Shown here: piece by piece, positions 27,527 to 36,318 of the stretch
How positions within the stretch are numbered: the first letter of the stretch is position 1
Layout: every line of letters starts with the position of its first letter
From: Methylotenera sp. G11
GTDB taxonomy: Bacteria > Pseudomonadota > Gammaproteobacteria > Burkholderiales > Methylophilaceae
DNA: 64,000 nucleotides
Direction of reading: 5' to 3'
Assembly: GCF_000799735.1 (NCBI RefSeq)
Contig: NZ_JUHH01000001.1
Location: 1,116,001 to 1,180,000 of the forward strand
Program-made: the position numbers and the translations under genes
The notes under the pieces: model-generated
What the model saw: the letters and a program-made list of their open reading frames with translations, nothing else
The model's database searches: none
What the model was told of the DNA's origin: nothing

Positions 27527-28627
27527 ACCCCCTGCTTCAAACTTTCTGTAATAAATGGATCAAGGTCGCCATCCAGCACCCCTTGCGTATTGCCTATTTC
27601 CACACCGGTCCGCAAGTCCTTGATCCTTGACTGGTCAAGCACATAAGATCGAATCTGATGCCCCCAGCCGATATCGGTTTTGGCATCTTCCAACGCCTGT
27701 TTTTCCTGATTACGCTTGTTCAGTTCCAGGTTATAGAGCGCGCCTCGCAGCATGCTCATCGCCTCATCCTTATTTCGATGCTGCGAACGGTCGTTCTGGC
27801 ACTGCACGACAACACCGGTAGGAATATGCGTAATACGCACGGCGGAGTCGGTCTTGTTAATATGCTGCCCGCCCGCACCGCTGGCACGATAAGTGTCGAT
27901 ACGCAGGTCGGCAGGGTTGATGTCAATCTGAATCGATTCATCCACTTCCGGGAAAACCTGCACGCTGGCGAAACTGGTATGGCGTTTGGCATTGGAATCG
28001 AACGGTGATTTGCGCACCAGCCGATGCACACCGTTCTCGGTTCTCAAGGTGCCATAGGCATAATCACCGCTTACTTTGATAGATGCGCCCTTGATACCGG
28101 CCACATCTCCTTCGGACTCTTCCAGCACTTCGACTTTAAAGCCCTTACGCTCACAATAACGCAAATACATACGCAGCAGCATATTGGCCCAATCCTGCGC
28201 TTCGGTGCCACCGCTGCCGGATTGGAACTCGACAAAGCAATTCGCGGCATCCAGCTCGCCCGAAAACATGCGCCTGAACTCCATTTCCGCTATCTTTTTT
28301 TCCAGCGCCTCGGAATCTGCTGCGATACTTAATAAAGTATCATCATCATTCTCCTCACGCGCCATTTCAAACAGCTCCTGCGCATCGTTAAGGCCGGTTT
28401 CAACACTCAACAGGGTGTTGACGACTGATTCCAGCTCACGCTTTTCTTTACCCAGCTTCTGGCTTTTGGCATTGTCATCCCAGATTTTCGGGTCTTCGAG
28501 CAGGCCATTTACTTCTTCCAGGCGCTGACTTTTGCTTTCAAAGTCAAAGATACCCCCGTAGGGCTTTGTTGCGCTCAACCAGATCGCTTAAGCGATTGGC
28601 GATAATATTGAGTTGTTCCGCTTCCAT
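27523..28627 (-). CDS. prfB: Peptide chain release factor 2 with programmed +1 frameshift
   Basis: RF2 releases peptides at UGA and UAA. The body has the tripeptide SPF in the anticodon-like loop ([11 protein letters not shown]) and the catalytic GGQ in [20 protein letters not shown]. The main frame alone opens at 28578, but the real start is the ATG at 28627. This encodes 27 residues (MEAEQLNII...ALRGYL) and then hits an in-frame UGA at 28546-28544. A +1 shift at CTT-TGA-C continues into [13 protein letters not shown] and gives about 367 residues. The shift site is the known autoregulatory device: low RF2 slows termination and favours the shift. Confidence 0.95.
28543..28560 (-). promoter_or_regulatory. 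RF2 programmed frameshift signal
   Basis: Read on the minus strand: GGGGGTATCTTTGAC. The internal Shine-Dalgarno-like G-run lies just before CTT, the slippery codon, which is followed by the in-frame UGA and C. This is nearly the same as the E. coli prfB site. Confidence 0.93.
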
Positions 28628-28820
28628 GACGCACACTTATTACAAAAAACGGAATTATACAGGAACTAATCTTGCTTATATTAACTTGCTGTTATTACAG
28701 TGACACTTGCTTGGTGCCGATATATCAAAACATTAAATACTGCCATCCGAATGAGAGTACTCGCCACAACTGCCGACTTCGTTATGCAAGAAATTCAATC
28801 CAATTGCCGTTAATACAAGT

Positions 28821-30174
28821 TCAAACTTCGATTGCAGATTGATTTTGCATAACTTCATTTATTCTGGCCTGCACTACAACCAGTTGTTGCTGATCCAAAC
28901 CTAAATCATGCAGATTTAGCAGGTCTGAGCTTAGCTGCGGGACTCCCTCCTGATTTGATACACTACTGCCATGAGAATCATTGATGCTGGGCATATCATT
29001 GATAGACACGCTTTCACCTCCATTACTTTGCTTTAATACAGCTATTTGATTGGATGAATTTATCTGCTCAACATCATTCATCACCCTATCAGAACGGCCA
29101 TCCGGAGCTGGCTGCTTACCCTTGAAATTAATTAAACAATGCGGGCCAGAGTCTATAATGTCAAAATCCCCAACCATGTATTGATACCCACGTTTTTCAA
29201 GAAACTTCTCAATTTGCTCATTGTAGCTGGCAGAGAATACGTTGCCATTCACCGTAACCAAATTGGTATCGGTATGAGGCGTACCGGTCGCCTTTAGCCC
29301 GCCTTTCTATTATTTCTGCCACTTCCGGTGTCGTGGCAGAAGGAATCAGAATCACCCCCCCGTCGGGCAATACCGACATGAATGTATCTAAATGATAATA
29401 ATCGTCTGGCATCTCGTTTCCATGGAATCCTGTTTTTGGAACAACAATAAGATTCATGTTTAGTTCTTTTGCCAAATTAGTTGCTGCCTTCTCTTGCTCG
29501 CAAAGAATTGGAAATTCTGGATGACTTGAATGTGGAAGATCCACATAAACTCCAACATAAACGGTATTTGATTTAGGGTCTTGGAGTACATCTCCTCCTT
29601 CAAGAAACCCATCTGTCACTACAGAAAAAATTCCTTGTTTTGTAAAATCTTTCTTCATTGCTTCTTGAACGCCAGATGAGCGTACCTCAACCTCAGTTTT
29701 CATGTCGCCTTGGGGATAAATTTGCGCACCATTAGGCGTCGCGACATAACGGTCTCTTGGCCATATCGTGCCGTGCAGACCACTAGTGCCATCACCCACA
29801 ACTGTCACATGCGCACCGGAAGCTTGCAATTGCGCATTAAGTGTATACCACCTCAGTTGATCACCAATCGCATATCCATTGGACTCGCCCATTACTACTT
29901 CAGGATGGCTGGTTTGCTGTGTTGTCTCTTTAATCCGTTCAATAATGGCATTTTGCTCGGCAATATACTCTGTTATTTTTTTCGACAGTTCCCCAAAATG
30001 CTGTTGAGGATTGATGGTTTTACCATCTAGCTGTCCAGTTTCCGCCAATACAAGATGCCCGTTTTTACTGTCTATGCTTATCCAACTGGCAATCGCTGAA
30101 CTCCCTGAATACTCATACATCAACTTAGTAATTTCATTCAACTTGGATTGAGAACCCATCTCTTCTACAGCCAT
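28821..30174 (-). pseudogene. Guanidino-modifying enzyme (deiminase/amidinotransferase fold), split by a frameshift
   Basis: Two overlapping reading frames together make one protein. The first, from ATG 30174 (GAGG site upstream; the frame is open to a GTG at 30186), carries WPRDRYV, GFLEGGDVL and YYHLDTFMSVLPDGGVILIP. These are the substrate-binding, acidic and H-x-D motifs of the arginine deiminase/dimethylargininase/amidinotransferase superfamily. The second frame (28821-29261) has no good start and carries SGPHCLINF, which looks like the missing catalytic-Cys strand, then an 80-residue polar tail. A one-base difference near 29298-29304 (AGGCGGGCTAAAG) would join them as ...ERR-LKATGTPHTDTN.... 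So this is a recent frameshift, a sequencing error or a programmed shift. The substrate is unknown. It is the last gene of the sigma-54-linked unit. Confidence 0.65.
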
Positions 30175-30428
30175 AACGCGCCTCACTATTTACTGGTAAG
30201 TAAAAAATATTACATGGGAAATATTACCATATAATATTGGTTAGCTATAAATGAGATAGTTACGCAGAATCATTCGTCTGGCCGATACCAAAATTAGACT
30301 ATTATCCGCCATGCCAGTTGGAGCTAAAATCTACCCCCTCGCATCATTGCAAGGTGCGAGCCCGTGGCAATCCAGCACGATGGAAACTATATCGGGTGAA
30401 TAAGGCGCAATAACCTTAGCATTGCCAT

Positions 30429-31001
30429 TTACTTCACTAAACTATGATCTTCACAAACCATAGCCATGCCGCTTTTTTCTCTGGCGTCTATTTCCCGCTT
30501 AAAACTGCCATCAGCCAGTTGTGAGGCTAACTTTGCTTTCACCCATGAAAGCTCCAGTTCAGACTGTGAATTGATGCCTTGGCTAGTATGATCGGCGTGC
30601 TGGTGATAATTATTGAAATTATTGTAATAAACAACTTCTTTGACATAATTTAGCACTTGAATTGCCTTGCTACCGGTAGCTTGATCTACCATTTTCAATG
30701 CCTCGTCAAAAGCTTTATTCGCGCTTGACCGTGCATCCAACATTAAATTTTTCTTGGCGTTTATAGTATCTGCCATCTTTATACTACCAGCTTCTTTTAA
30801 TGCATCAGTATTCACGTAAAAGATTGTCTCTTTTTTTAACATAAACTTGGTGTCATCTTCAGCTGGTGTGCCTTCCAAACAGCCGCCCACTAACTGCCTC
30901 TTACCTGCATCCAATACATCACTAATCTTAGCTTCAAGCCCTGCTTGAACTTCACCTAAAATAATAGTACCTGGCCCTATGATTTTCTCTTCATTATCCA
31001 T
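30429..31001 (-). CDS. Unrecognised 190-residue protein of the NifA-linked accessory operon
   Basis: I do not recognise this protein. It has no signal peptide or membrane helix and is mostly helical and polar in the middle (NAKKNLMLDARSSANKAFDEALKMVD). The N-terminus looks beta-rich (IIGPGTIILGEVQAGLEAKI), and a His/Asn-rich stretch occurs near residue 130. The start ATG at 31001 has a good AGAGGGG ribosome binding site 7 nt upstream. It follows the 662-residue gene by 68 nt on the same strand without an obvious terminator, so it is probably cotranscribed. It lies in a lower-GC stretch than the flanking housekeeping genes. Confidence 0.6.
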   Translation of the reverse strand: MDNEEKIIGPGTIILGEVQAGLEAKISDVLDAGKRQLVGGCLEGTPAEDDTKFMLKKETIFYVNTDALKEAGSIKMADTINAKKNLMLDARSSANKAFDEALKMVDQATGSKAIQVLNYVKEVVYYNNFNNYHQHADHTSQGINSQSELELSWVKAKLASQLADGSFKREIDAREKSGMAMVCEDHSLVK

Positions 31002-31069
31002 CGTGTTACCCCTCTATTAATTTGTATCACTTGATCTAAATTCTTAATCAATTACAAACACATTACTTT

Positions 31070-33058
31070 TCAATTAAGCGACAGTTCCTGACGAGGCGTG
31101 ACTTGCATATCATTTTTAGTGGCATTTCGTGCTTCATAATTTGCAACCACGCCTTGCAACTCGTTTGCACCCAGGGCTTTAGATAAATTATTTATCGCGA
31201 TGTCCAGGGCGCGGTCATCACTTGCATCGATTACGCCATCTTTAGTCACATGTCGATAAAGTTGCGAGAAACTATCCACCGCTGCTTTTAACGCCACAGG
31301 TTTATGTTCTGGCATATTAATGTTAACGTCACCAGTTTCTCGAATATAGGCGGCTGTCTTGACAAACTCCTCTTGAGGCGTGAGAGATACTGGCATGCCT
31401 AGAGCTTTTTGCACTGCATTAAGTTTTTCATTCGCCGCTACCGCAACATTTTTAACCGCTTCAATACCTGAGACACCGAAAGCTTCAACAAAACCCGGCG
31501 CCACATCAGTAGGTTTACCCGTTACAAATGCAACCAGTCTTTGCGCATACCGGTTAACCTCGCCAACTGGCGTCCAATCCAGCAATCGTGCAACAGCTTC
31601 ATTGGGCTTATCTTCTTGCTGCGCCTTTACGAAACTTACTATTGGAGCAATATCCGTTGCGGTATTCCCAGCCACTTTCATAAATACATGTGCTTTTTCT
31701 TCACTATCGCCATTAGTCGCGTAAGCACTTGCTGCACCAGAAGCTAATGCCAAACCAGAACCAATCAACAAACCAATTCCACCTTTACCAGCACCAGTTG
31801 CACGTGCGGACGCTGCTCTCGCCAGTTCCACATCTGTAATTGGAGTGCTGTATCCATTAAGATTAAGCTGCTGATTTGATATGCGCGTTACTGTTGGATT
31901 TGCCGCAGAAGCGTTAGCCATGCTTGTGCTTGCGGTTCTTTTTACATCGGCATCCGTGATTGGTGTGCTGTATGGTGTTAGATTTATTGGTTTATTAACA
32001 TTGTTGCCTGCGTTTGCATCTCGCATATCCAAAACATCCGGCATTTCATTCGCGGGGAAAAACTGTGTTGGGTAATCCACCTTTTTTTGTATGACAATGT
32101 TACGCGCATCCGCTGAACGTAAACCTTCAATGAACGGATGGCGGGATTTAGATAACTCTTCACGAGTTTTACCAGTAATATGATCAAGCGCTGATCTCTC
32201 GCCCTGCAATGAAACATCAGGAGCTGTCATTGCCCGAATATTTCCCTGTGCATATTTCTCAAGGTTTTCAGGTGTCCAGGCATTACCCTGATGTACCTGT
32301 TGCGCATCACCGACTGCTTGCAACATCTTGTTAAAATCAGCCACTGGAACCCGATGCTGAAACTTTTCAACGGTTGTTTGAATAATGTCATCCATTGACA
32401 ACGTGAGCCGAGCGCCACGACCATCAAACTCCACCAACTCATTGCTAGGCTTAAAGATAATAGTATTGCCACGCCCTTGTTCGAGGGCAAATCTTGAATT
32501 AGCAGAATAATGATCGACAATTAACGACTTCAAATTTTCTACATCAACATTGCCCACCAACCCACCACTGACGTTCACGTTAAAATCGTTCGCACTCAAC
32601 AGATAAATCTTGCCGGTAGCTCGTTCAGTGGCGGCCTGCATTGCCTCTATCAAATTCACTTTTGCGTCAATCAACTGCTCTGCTGTAAGCATTTGGCCAT
32701 CAACATGCACACCTAAATTCTTAGCGGTTTCAGCGGCAAGCTTCAGGTCTATATTGTTTTGAGGCTGATGATTGTACTTATCCAGCAATGACTGCGCCTC
32801 ACGATAAAGGTCTGGTTGATAAATTCGCAGGTAATGCTCCCCATGCCTATTGCCGGCCAAATCCTCTAAACTGAATTCGGCTACTAATCTATTCTCGTCC
32901 ATAGCAGCTTGGCGAAAACTATCGCTGGTATGAATAAAAACTGGCGATCTAACTTCACCTCTAGCGTATGGCGTTTGCAGTGTGTCTCTAGGTGTCGTCA
33001 TTAGTAAATTAGCGACGACTGCCGGATTGACACCGGTAGATGGTACGGTTGCACTCAT
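31070..33058 (-). CDS. Unrecognised 662-residue protein, first gene downstream of a sigma-54 promoter
   Basis: I do not recognise this protein. There is no signal peptide. It has a helical N-terminal half (about 1-330), then a tandem motif NLTPYSTPITDADVKRTAS / LNLNGYSTPITDVELARAAS (about residues 358-410). A glycine/alanine-rich hydrophobic helix follows (GGIGLLIGSGLALASGAASAYA, about 418-440), then a C-terminal helical part with an acidic DGVIDASDDRAL segment near residue 615. A single internal hydrophobic stretch in a large, signal-less protein recalls secreted effectors or toxins, but I found no known catalytic motif. The start ATG at 33058 has AAAGGAG 7 nt upstream. Divergent from the NifA-type regulator. 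Confidence 0.65.
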   Translation of the reverse strand: MSATVPSTGVNPAVVANLLMTTPRDTLQTPYARGEVRSPVFIHTSDSFRQAAMDENRLVAEFSLEDLAGNRHGEHYLRIYQPDLYREAQSLLDKYNHQPQNNIDLKLAAETAKNLGVHVDGQMLTAEQLIDAKVNLIEAMQAATERATGKIYLLSANDFNVNVSGGLVGNVDVENLKSLIVDHYSANSRFALEQGRGNTIIFKPSNELVEFDGRGARLTLSMDDIIQTTVEKFQHRVPVADFNKMLQAVGDAQQVHQGNAWTPENLEKYAQGNIRAMTAPDVSLQGERSALDHITGKTREELSKSRHPFIEGLRSADARNIVIQKKVDYPTQFFPANEMPDVLDMRDANAGNNVNKPINLTPYSTPITDADVKRTASTSMANASAANPTVTRISNQQLNLNGYSTPITDVELARAASARATGAGKGGIGLLIGSGLALASGAASAYATNGDSEEKAHVFMKVAGNTATDIAPIVSFVKAQQEDKPNEAVARLLDWTPVGEVNRYAQRLVAFVTGKPTDVAPGFVEAFGVSGIEAVKNVAVAANEKLNAVQKALGMPVSLTPQEEFVKTAAYIRETGDVNINMPEHKPVALKAAVDSFSQLYRHVTKDGVIDASDDRALDIAINNLSKALGANELQGVVANYEARNATKNDMQVTPRQELSLN

Positions 33059-33146
33059 GATGCATCTCCTTTAACAAATGATTTACGCAACCCACCTATA
33101 GATTATTTACTTACTTCTACCTAGAGCAGGGCGTTTAACCATCTAT

Positions 33147-33162
33147 TGCAATCGCCATGCCA
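33147..33162 (-). promoter_or_regulatory. Sigma-54 (-24/-12) promoter of the accessory operon
   Basis: Minus strand: TGGCAT-GGCGA-TTGCA, matching the TGGCAC-N5-TTGCA consensus with one mismatch and exact GG/GC spacing. It lies about 90 nt upstream of the 662-residue gene, leaving a leader of about 75-80 nt. Confidence 0.78.
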
Positions 33163-33230
33163 TTTTATATTTTTTATTGTAACCAATTGAAAAACAAGAT
33201 AATTAATTAAAATAGCAGCTATACAAAATA

Positions 33231-33246
33231 TGTAGGTTATGCAACA
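33231..33246 (-). promoter_or_regulatory. NifA-type upstream activator site 1
   Basis: TGT-AGGTTATGCA-ACA fits the TGT-N10-ACA NifA binding consensus and lies about 70 bp upstream of the -24 element. Confidence 0.6.
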
Positions 33247-33272
33247 ACCTTGTCTCAATCACTTCATTGTTA

Positions 33273-33288
33273 TGTAGGCTTTGTTACA
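33273..33288 (-). promoter_or_regulatory. NifA-type upstream activator site 2
   Basis: TGT-AGGCTTTGTT-ACA is a second TGT-N10-ACA match. It shares TGTAGG with site 1 and is centred 42 bp (about four helical turns) further upstream. Confidence 0.6.
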
Positions 33289-33436
33289 CACTTGCATTTT
33301 ATGCAATGATTAAAATGTGATTCTTGTTATTCATAGCCACCTTCGATGCTGCAATTTACATGATTGATCAAACCTCAAGCCGCGGCATATATATTGCTTA
33401 AATAAACCAATACAATTACTTGCAAGGTCAATCGAA

Positions 33437-35041
33437 ATGTTTTACCCATCGCCTGGTTTCAACCATATCGCGTTGATAACTATCTATGAAATAAGCAAGA
33501 TACTGAGTACTTCACTTGCGCTGGATAAAACCTTGAGGCAAACGCTTAATCTAATCGCCGCCCATTTAAATATGACTCGCGGCATGGTGTGCCTGATTCA
33601 GGCCTCCGGGCAATTGGCTACAGTTGCCTCTACCGGTTTAACTCGCGAAGAAATGCAACGTGGTGAATTCAAGATGGGCGAAGGCATTACCGGAAAAATA
33701 TTTCAGCATGCGATACCAGCAGTCATTCCCGACGTTGCTAATGAACCCTTGTTTCTGAACAAAACTGGTGCATTCAGGCAACTGGAAGGCAAATCTATCG
33801 CTTTTTTAGGCGTACCCATTAAAGTCGGCACAGAGTGCATTGGCGTACTCTCTTTTCAGTATGAAAAAGGAGAAGTTTGTAAGGAGTTTCAACCCAAACT
33901 TCAATTATTGATCATGGCTGCCAATCTAATAGGCCAGACTGTACGCCTTAATCAAAAAATCACGACCGAGCGGCATCAACTGATGCAGGAAAAATACCGC
34001 CTGCAAAAAGACCTTGCAAACAAATACAGCCTGGATGGTGTCATTGGTCAATCAAAACGCATGCAGGAAGTATTTACTGATGTACACATGGCAGCGCCCG
34101 GCAATAACACCATATTGCTGCGCGGGGAATCAGGTACCGGCAAGGAAGTAATTGCACGTTCAATTCATTTTCTATCTCCGCGTAAGAATAAGCCATTCAT
34201 CAAACTAAACTGCGCGGCACTTACCGAAAGTCTGCTGGAATCAGAATTGTTTGGGCATGAGAAAGGCGCGTTTACCGGAGCGCTGCATCACAGAAAAGGA
34301 CGTTTTGAACAAGCGCATGGCGGTACATTATTTCTGGATGAAATCGGTGATATATCCCCTGCTTTTCAAGTAAAACTACTGCGCGTGTTGCAGGAACGTG
34401 AATTTGAACGTGTAGGTGGCAATGATGCGATTAAGATAGATGTTCGCCTGATTTGTGCGACCAACCGCGATCTGGAGCAAGCGGTCAGTAGCGGTGGGTT
34501 TCGTTCAGACCTGTATTTTCGTATCAATGTAATTTCAATTTACCTGCCCCCACTCCGTGAGCGGCAAGAAGACATTCCGTTGCTGGTTGAAAATACACTG
34601 GCACGTTTCAATAAAGAAAATAACGTAAAAATTGAAATCACGCCTCAAGCACTACATATACTCATGAACTGTCAATGGCCTGGCAATGTACGCGAACTGG
34701 AAAACTGCGTGGCACGTTTTTGCACCTTATCCCATAGCAATCTAATTCAAGCTTCAGATATCCCATGCCAAGCCAACAATTGCCCGTCTTCAATACTTTG
34801 GAAACATCAGCCATATCCAATAACCACTGCGGCATTACATAGCACAGATCCTATACAACAGCACAGTATTACAAGCAATGAGGTACAAAACAGCCTGCCT
34901 GTAAACGAACGGCAGCGCATGATTAACGCAATGGAAAAAAGTGGCTGGGTTCAGGCAAAAGCGGCTCGCTCACTAAACCTGACACCTCGCCAAATGGGAT
35001 ACGCACTTAAAAAATACAAAATTGATATTAAAAAATTATAA
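33437..35041 (+). CDS. NifA-family sigma-54-dependent activator with redox cysteine motif
   Basis: Domains: GAF (about 20-165), AAA+ sigma-54 interaction domain (about 200-430) with Walker A GESGTGKE and GAFTGA loop, and a Fis-type HTH at the C-terminus (SGWVQAKAARSLNLTPRQMGYALKKY) that is typical of NifA. The interdomain region has C412-X11-C424-X19-C444-X4-C449, exactly the pattern of oxygen-sensitive NifA proteins. At 534 residues it has NifA length. No nif structural gene is nearby. The divergent gene has a sigma-54 promoter and two NifA-type sites, so this activator most likely drives that unknown operon. It could still be a true NifA whose nif genes lie elsewhere. Confidence 0.85.
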   Translation: MFYPSPGFNHIALITIYEISKILSTSLALDKTLRQTLNLIAAHLNMTRGMVCLIQASGQLATVASTGLTREEMQRGEFKMGEGITGKIFQHAIPAVIPDVANEPLFLNKTGAFRQLEGKSIAFLGVPIKVGTECIGVLSFQYEKGEVCKEFQPKLQLLIMAANLIGQTVRLNQKITTERHQLMQEKYRLQKDLANKYSLDGVIGQSKRMQEVFTDVHMAAPGNNTILLRGESGTGKEVIARSIHFLSPRKNKPFIKLNCAALTESLLESELFGHEKGAFTGALHHRKGRFEQAHGGTLFLDEIGDISPAFQVKLLRVLQEREFERVGGNDAIKIDVRLICATNRDLEQAVSSGGFRSDLYFRINVISIYLPPLRERQEDIPLLVENTLARFNKENNVKIEITPQALHILMNCQWPGNVRELENCVARFCTLSHSNLIQASDIPCQANNCPSSILWKHQPYPITTAALHSTDPIQQHSITSNEVQNSLPVNERQRMINAMEKSGWVQAKAARSLNLTPRQMGYALKKYKIDIKKL

Positions 35042-35072
35042 AATACATTAACGCATCAAGATTTTTACGATG

Positions 35073-35474
35073 CTAACCCACTAGTCCACCATCTTCTTTG
35101 GTAAAAATGCCTATGTCCGGATTCTCCAGGATTGTCAGCACCAGTTCAGACGGGCGGCATAATTTAGCGCCTTTGGCTGTAACGACAATCGGGCGGTTGA
35201 TCAACACAGGATGCTGCATCATGGCGTCGATCAAAGCGTTTTCAGTCAAACTCAAATCGTGCAACCCAAGTTCCTGGTAAGGCGCAGCTTTTTCACGCAG
35301 GATGTCGCGCGCCGTGCATCCCATCATCGAGATCAATTCCAGCAAGCGCTCACGGCTTGGCGGGGTTTTGAGGTATTCAATGACCTCCGGTTCGATACCG
35401 CTGGCACGTATCATGGCAAGCGTGTTGCGTGACGTGCCGCAGGCAGGGTTATGGTAGATCACGGTATTGCTCAT
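35073..35474 (-). CDS. arsC: Arsenate reductase (glutaredoxin-type ArsC)
   Basis: A 133-residue ArsC/Spx-fold reductase with the catalytic cysteine in YHNPACGTSRNTLAMI and the arginine motif in VLINRPIVVTAKGAKLCRPSE. It reduces arsenate to arsenite using glutaredoxin. The frame is open to 35507, but the ATG at 35474, with an AAAGGA ribosome binding site, gives the family start MSNTVIYHNP. It is convergent with the NifA-type gene (31 bp between stops), and no ars transporter or regulator is nearby. Confidence 0.88.
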   Translation of the reverse strand: MSNTVIYHNPACGTSRNTLAMIRASGIEPEVIEYLKTPPSRERLLELISMMGCTARDILREKAAPYQELGLHDLSLTENALIDAMMQHPVLINRPIVVTAKGAKLCRPSELVLTILENPDIGIFTKEDGGLVG

Positions 35475-35661
35475 AATTTTGTCCTTTTCTGATTGCTTGA
35501 ACAGCAAAATTCCGTACGGATTTTAACCTCAAAAAAACAACACAACTGCAAATAAGTTCAATTAATCAGCAATAATCACTCGCAGATTTAACCTTGGGCG
35601 GTTAAACTTACGAAAATTTTTATTTGCAATAAATCTGTAACAATTAGGGAGATTCCGCATC

Positions 35662-36318
35662 ATGGCGAATGCAACACTGGGCCGATTAATGGCAATGATT
35701 TCACCGCGCAATGACAATTACTTTGTGCTATTCAACAGTCTGGCAGACTGTGTCGTAAGAGGCTCAAAAGTATTAGCCATGATGTCAGCCGTAAAAGATC
35801 CTACAAAGTTCGATGAGCATTTTGCCGAACTCCGCAAGATCGAATCGGAAGCCGATGAATACACACGTGAGATCCTGCTCTCCCTGCACAAAACCTTCAT
35901 CACGCCGTTTGACCGCCGCGAGATCCGTGAACTGGCCATGGCGCTGGATGACATCATTGACTATATGGAAGACATTCCGCAAAGTGCGAAAATCTACGGT
36001 GAATCTGCATTTACGCCGGAAATGGTTGCGCTTAGCCAGATTCTGCTGCGCGCTTCAGAAAAAGTACGTGAAGCCGTGAGCATGCTGTCCGACATGAAAA
36101 ATTCCGAAAAAATCCTGCGCACCTGTGCCGAGATCAGCGGCATCGAAGGCGAAGCCGACCACGTAATGCGCGCCGGCATGCACCGCCTGTTTGCTGAGGA
36201 ATCTGACGCACGCACCTTGATCCGCTCAAAAGAGCTTTACGATATTTTCGAAGAGGCTGTCGACAGCTGTGAAGACGTTGCAGACGTCATTCACGGTGTA
36301 GTGTTAGAGCGTATTTAA
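35662..36318 (+). CDS. DUF47/PhoU-like protein paired with the Pit transporter
   Basis: A 218-residue, all-helical protein of the TIGR00153/DUF47 family. Conserved acidic and basic segments include IESEADEYTREILLSLHKTFITPFDRREIRELA, which likely bind metal clusters as in PhoU. Such proteins regulate or accompany Pit-type phosphate transporters. It lies 9 nt before the transporter gene and has a GGGAG ribosome binding site, so the two form an operon. Confidence 0.9.
   Translation: MANATLGRLMAMISPRNDNYFVLFNSLADCVVRGSKVLAMMSAVKDPTKFDEHFAELRKIESEADEYTREILLSLHKTFITPFDRREIRELAMALDDIIDYMEDIPQSAKIYGESAFTPEMVALSQILLRASEKVREAVSMLSDMKNSEKILRTCAEISGIEGEADHVMRAGMHRLFAEESDARTLIRSKELYDIFEEAVDSCEDVADVIHGVVLERI

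Follow-up and report, generated by a model that had tools for sequence, protein, structure and literature searches.

The window analysed here, a stretch of 64,000 nucleotides from the genome of Methylotenera sp. G11, contains at positions 33059-35041 a regulator gene together with the intergenic region that separates it from a divergent operon; the operon itself extends to 28821. The regulator gene (33437-35041, plus strand) is a lone nifA that encodes a protein of 534 aa. Downstream of the intergenic region, on the minus strand, four open reading frames (ORFs) of 100 aa or more were found: ORF1 (31070-33058; 662 aa), ORF2 (30429-31001; 190 aa), ORF3 (29218-30186; 322 aa, GTG start) and the ORF4 frame (28821-29297; 146 aa from a TTG at 29261). 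The preliminary description had a NifA-family regulator diverging from three genes. The regulator is indeed divergent from orphan ORFs, but these number four of at least 100 aa, of which the last two are seemingly one split gene. In the following, nifA, the operon and the region between them are referred to as the cassette.

By family score and motifs the regulator is NifA, as first described. It scored 698 bits against the TIGR01817 nifA model over residues 12-534, 169 bits above the cut-off of 528.85, and Pfam placed the domains in the order PF01590 (GAF), PF00158 (Sigma54_activat, the AAA+ sigma54 activator domain) and PF02954 (HTH_8, a Fis-type HTH). The translation is legible for stretches that we take to be the Walker A, GAFTGA and HTH motifs. 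Protein alignment further revealed the cysteine motif C-X11-C-X19-C-X4-C at the end of the AAA+ domain and in the linker; the same four-cysteine motif is present in 20 of 25 other aligned proteins, including all nine of the same family. The spacing is identical to that in NifA of Azospirillum and Herbaspirillum, where four cysteines (C414, C426, C446 and C451) are said to confer oxygen sensitivity (PMC9866876; see also PMC10590331).

In the intergenic region, on the strand of the operon (minus), lies the sigma54-type -24/-12 promoter of the operon, TGGCATGGCGATTGCA (33147-33162; TGGCAT-N5-TTGCA). It is free of mismatches to TGGCAYG-N4-TTGCW and carries T for C at one position relative to the consensus TGGCACG-N4-TTGCW (PMC4999443). 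Two TGT-N10-ACA sites on the same strand, the proximal TGTTGCATAACCTACA (33231-33246) and the distal TGTAACAAAGCCTACA (33273-33288), start 84 and 126 bp from this promoter, respectively; their starts are thus 42 bp apart, and they have in common the half-site CCTACA, which reads TGTAGG on the opposite strand. The promoter and the pair of sites sharing TGTAGG had been reported in the preliminary description, and on direct reading of the sequence all of their coordinates proved correct. A chance origin of these motifs was rejected on the basis of simulation, genome-wide counts and counts of a reversed pattern. Among 200,000 first-order Markov sequences modelled on the 378-bp intergenic region (33% GC), the strict promoter occurred on either strand in 0.08% and two or more TGT-N10-ACA sites in 0.9%, while the promoter and two sites together occurred in none (0/200,000). 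The strict promoter is present in 9 copies in the whole 2.55-Mb genome, compared with 2 copies for the reversed-pattern control. Within the 64-kb window TGGCA-N6-TTGC was found at three places, and a TGT-N10-ACA site within 160 bp upstream was found for the operon promoter only.

The arrangement was compared with the nif regions of relatives. There, a promoter accompanied by a site was found in front of nifB, nifH and iscS genes as well as several further ORFs; NCBIfam was used to check one gene each of nifB, nifH and iscS, the rest being recognised by how similarly they start. All five nifB promoters examined have the start of the proximal site 84 bp upstream of TGGC (one of the five genes was checked as NifB), and the cassette promoter shows the same offset; at other promoters of these nif regions the nearest site lies at 73-100 bp, with one exception at 159. 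The second site is found 42 bp beyond the proximal one in the cassette, versus 28-30 bp in the nifB promoters. The earlier proposal that order, strand and spacing fit NifA-type (NifA/sigma54) activation holds. Nif-positive relatives also have a gene set headed by iscS that is preceded by a promoter and a site of the NifA type (L119 6651-7950, L121 about 11526, L123 about 8656); in the relative G071, the iscS-led set is divergent from nifA. Homology of the cassette intergenic region to this nifA-iscS divergent region was considered and rejected, as the two regions aligned poorly outside the surroundings of the nifA promoter element.

The nif structural gene sought in these genomes was nifH alone. 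Using PF00142 at E 1e-60 or better in 22 genomes (nine of the 26 nifA carriers lying outside this set), nifH was detected in all 16 of the other nifA carriers and in none of five nifA-less genus mates, and it was not found in the window's genome, which is a single contig rated 99.99% complete. At the permissive threshold of E 0.001, PF00142 gave three partial matches in the window's genome, none longer than 62 positions and two exceeding the Pfam cut-off. Given that 14 of 14 control genomes, E. coli included, also match at this threshold, we read these short matches as other P-loop proteins. RpoN is encoded in the genome (E 1.5e-67). As the genome is without nifH, any regulon of the lone NifA probably lies outside Mo-nitrogenase expression.

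Candidate targets were searched for across genomes as GCAA-N6-TGCCA followed by TGT-N10-ACA within 50-110 bp. This pattern matched 3 times in the window's genome and 0-3 times in eight nifA-less genus mates; ten nifA carriers had 4-10 matches each, with some promoters contributing twice. By number the window's genome thus resembles a nifA-less one, and the count is no sign of a NifA regulon. The match at 1743279 was rejected as a NifA target since it sits inside a 614-aa ORF. The match at 426964, which precedes a gene for an EpsA-type regulator (TIGR03020), was set aside as probably a site of another sigma54 activator. The surrounding stretch (L124 9965-10893; G000:C1 426964-427892) shows a -24/-12 promoter and the near-palindrome TGTCATAAAACTGACA before the EpsA-type regulator gene. 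With three matches to the strict pattern, one of them coding and one before epsA, a larger NifA regulon was discarded; judged from the sequence pattern, the adjoining operon is plausibly the only convincing NifA target of the three, and it may be the sole one. The preliminary description had suggested a NifA regulon outside nitrogen fixation: the lack of nifH and the presence of RpoN agree with this, but for one plausible target the word regulon is maybe too large.

A sigma54-dependent operon promoter could also be run by another activator, with NifA acting elsewhere or on weak sites. Candidates exist: besides the regulator gene itself, the genome has ten places that match the regulator at an E value of at most 1e-3, and for nine of these E is below 1e-54. 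Moreover, the inner bases of both sites fit the NifA matrix of the relatives only moderately. With a matrix built from 20 distinct sites of relatives, whose own leave-one-out scores range from -7.7 to 9.2, the inner ten bases of each cassette site scored 1.7 bits in the orientation of the operon, a value that 1 of the 26 oriented background sites attained (the two cassette sites and the epsA site being left out); in the opposite orientation the distal site scored 4.6 and the proximal site 0.5. The epsA site scored 0.3 or 4.1 depending on orientation and is thus about as good a fit as the cassette sites, so that NifA sites are not told apart by the matrix alone. Against control by another activator, however, the cassette sites adjoin nifA itself at the offset seen in five of five nifB promoters, and the sole other intergenic match in the genome is the one before epsA. 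We therefore regard this alternative as unlikely, and infer from motif and position that NifA would bind the two TGT-N10-ACA sites and activate the operon.

A second -24/-12-like element, CGGCAT-N5-TTGCT, lies upstream of nifA on the plus strand (33383-33398); in it the initial base of TGGC is different. Its end is 38 bases from the nifA start, with gaps of 94 and 136 bases to the two TGT-N10-ACA sites, which owing to this element are situated between divergent sigma54-type promoter elements. Of 17 relatives examined, 5 have the motif [CT]GGC-N7-TTGC at 49-84 bp before nifA, among them G161 with CGGCATGTATTTTGCT; distances were counted from the ORF start or from the conserved start region. Autoactivation of nifA via the same sites is therefore plausible. 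The occurrence of the element just upstream of nifA, here and in those five relatives, would even be compatible with promoter and sites serving mainly nifA while the operon benefits little or is unexpressed. The operon-side promoter is, however, the better match (no mismatch) and lies nearer to the proximal site, which makes such a purely autoregulatory role very improbable.

Regarding the payload of the operon, ORF1 and ORF2 are without a known family or homologue in our searches. ORF1 displays an internal repeat at 31831-31984, with YSTPITD occurring twice, beside a glycine/alanine-rich hydrophobic stretch. ORF3 carries the motifs WPRD, EGGD and HLD and resembles the N-terminal part of an arginine-deiminase-superfamily-like protein; the ORF4 frame carries a C-terminal GPHCLI motif and seemingly continues ORF3 in another frame. 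Motifs of these types are presumably marks of the arginine deiminase/DDAH superfamily. The NCBIfam model for DDAH (dimethylargininase) matched ORF3 weakly (E 0.002). In hhalign comparisons with DDAH-type relatives, which were weak as well, EGGD of ORF3 aligned on EAGD and the cysteine of the ORF4 frame fell on the C-terminal cysteine of the DDAH-type alignment; E values were 0.0009 and 0.002 for the ORF3/ORF4 pieces, with the controls ORF2 and ORF1 reaching 0.17 and 0.0059, respectively. Classical ADI proteins gave no real match to ORF3/ORF4. The EGGD, catalytic His and C-terminal Cys motifs are ordered as expected, yet divided over two frames, and judging from these motifs ORF3 and ORF4 look like one deiminase-superfamily gene that has been split. 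The split lies somewhere upstream of 29261, where no slippery heptamer was seen by eye, and the frame break may represent a mutation, a sequencing error or design. The apparently broken state of ORF3/ORF4 argues against a working enzyme.

Searches for the identity of the payload in Pfam, NCBIfam, PHROGs and PADLOC yielded nothing strong, nor did a PDB sequence search of ORF1 and ORF3. Single-sequence fold predictions were unusable (mean pLDDT of 38.8 for ORF3 and 37.5 for ORF2), and an Rfam search of 28500-35700 gave no match. In the gap between ORF2 and ORF3, GGGCTCGCACCTTGCA (30348-30363, minus strand) resembles a -24/-12 element in which the first base of TGGC differs; it may be due to chance. 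Whole-genome searches were made with ORF1 and ORF3. Among 150 relatives, and likewise among 399 genomes of the order, the window's own genome was the only one with ORF1; the same held for ORF3 among 369 genomes of the class. No homologue was detected among plasmids for ORF1, ORF2, ORF3 or the ORF4 frame, among viral contigs for ORF1, ORF2 or ORF3, among phages for ORF1, or in a collection of named genomes for ORF1, the sole operon protein sent there.

The cassette occupies an island (28669-35079) between prfB and arsC, flanking genes named from NCBIfam, with its ends placed where the alignment to G011 stops. In G011, a near relative in which a 218-aa neighbour protein is 99% identical, about 45 bp separate the alignments of the prfB and arsC flanks, compared with 6,411 bp holding nifA and the operon in the window. 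The GC content is 0.35-0.47 in the island and 0.51-0.55 in the left flank; in the right flank it is 0.43 over the initial 500 bp and 0.51-0.53 thereafter. Six related prfB-region loci (G011, L115, L116, L117, L118 and L125) contained no match to the four operon ORFs at E 1e-3, and none to nifA was listed for them at E 1e-20. In L115 and L116 no arsC match adjoins prfB, and in L117 and L118 about 1.2 kb of other sequence lies beside prfB. The apparent start of prfB in the window is an ATG at 28627 (28545-28627), and CTT TGA C following a G-rich stretch is what we take to be the usual frame-shift signal of this gene. The simplest reading of these comparisons is that the island was gained in this lineage; the NifA cassette has probably moved horizontally, and that the transfer was inward is our inference.

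The phylogenetic position of the lone NifA was evaluated in a tree of 26 rows (L037 and L038 were left out, and L042 had no usable ORF). It falls within the clade of its family (support 100/100) and outside the clade formed by the NifA of four genus mates (support 100/98). No other row of its clade lies deeper, though the difference is not gross: its summed tree length from the clade fork is 0.57, versus 0.21-0.47 for the other nine. A scan of named genomes with NifA kept 80 relatives at 36-57% identity over the best segment, three of which entered the tree, and the 80 included no close carrier. Of 182 columns invariant among 18 other NifA proteins, 174 are retained in the lone NifA. The 8 broken columns compare with 0-3 in its nine clade mates and 0-10 in nine more distant proteins, in a leave-one-out count in which some of the compared rows have near-copies in the set. 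Being the deepest of its clade with 8 of 182 invariant columns broken, the lone NifA has possibly undergone some loosening or change of function.

These features would be shared by a drifting remnant of a lost or only partly transferred nif cluster, whose neighbours and nearby motifs have no regulatory tie to it; the lack of nifH in the genome and the apparently broken gene at the end of the operon point in the same direction. On the other hand, the nifA ORF is full-length and has kept the Walker A, GAFTGA and HTH stretches, the four-cysteine motif and most of the invariant columns, while the promoter and its two sites are far beyond chance. In addition, the tree position differs from that of NifA in the four genus mates, and the locus is unlike the nif regions examined. 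On balance, we consider that nifA is rather unlikely to be a leftover of this kind.

Together, these data make it likely that the locus is a self-contained NifA cassette that, in a genome without nifH, drives an acquired operon at low oxygen and/or low nitrogen. In the mechanism that we propose from sequence comparison, NifA would become active when oxygen, and probably also fixed nitrogen, is scarce and would bind to both TGT-N10-ACA sites in the region separating the divergent genes. Bound NifA would then contact sigma54-RNA polymerase at 33147-33162 and drive the ATP-dependent formation of the open complex, so that the whole operon, from ORF1 and ORF2 to the split deiminase-like ORF3/ORF4, would be transcribed. 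From these sites NifA could also act on the element at 33383-33398, plausibly resulting in autoactivation of nifA. More tentatively, NifA may here have been freed from nitrogen fixation to become the private switch of a mobile low-oxygen/low-nitrogen operon, encoding a large orphan, a small orphan and a protein like a guanidino-modifying enzyme, that was moved into a nifH-less host; we advance this wider reading as a possibility with somewhat less than an even chance of being right.

The cassette shares its regulator family (TIGR01817), cysteine motif, promoter, sites and 84-bp nifB offset with the NifA-RpoN systems at alpha- and beta-proteobacterial nif promoters. It differs from them in that the genome is without nifH and that the operon beside nifA, the sole adjacent target, is made up of unknown genes. 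Targets of NifA other than nif genes have been described within the NifA-RpoN regulon of Mesorhizobium loti R7A (PMC3538637), and auxin genes are given as NifA targets outside nif in Paraburkholderia phymatum (PMC9554594). As far as the consulted portions of these reports go, the likeness is that NifA and RpoN drive non-nitrogenase genes, as we propose for the cassette; however, the rhizobial hosts fix nitrogen, whereas the cassette genome lacks nifH and holds regulator and operon as a pair on one island. For Leptospirillum ferriphilum, a NifA-like regulator was annotated and no nitrogenase genes were identified (PMC2607301); the likeness is one of annotation. The Leptospirillum gene is located among flagellar genes, and a promoter or site is not described in the consulted portion of that report. 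Nlh1 and Nlh2, the latter from Aquifex aeolicus, are GAF-containing NifA-like sigma54 activators, of which Nlh1 is thought to act in nitrogen assimilation and not in fixation (PMC9866876). Compared by description, and within the consulted portion of that source, they are not presented as paired with a private operon on an island. Beyond the cases cited, no lone nifA was encountered in a literature survey that consisted mostly of listings. What seems to be new is the combination, on one island, of a NifA separated from nifH and a private promoter. NifA serves both as a marker of nitrogen fixation and as its master regulator. If our reading is true, the NifA/sigma54 switch would be separable from nitrogen fixation and reusable as a portable low-oxygen sensor, and the cassette would serve as a warning against inferring diazotrophy from nifA.
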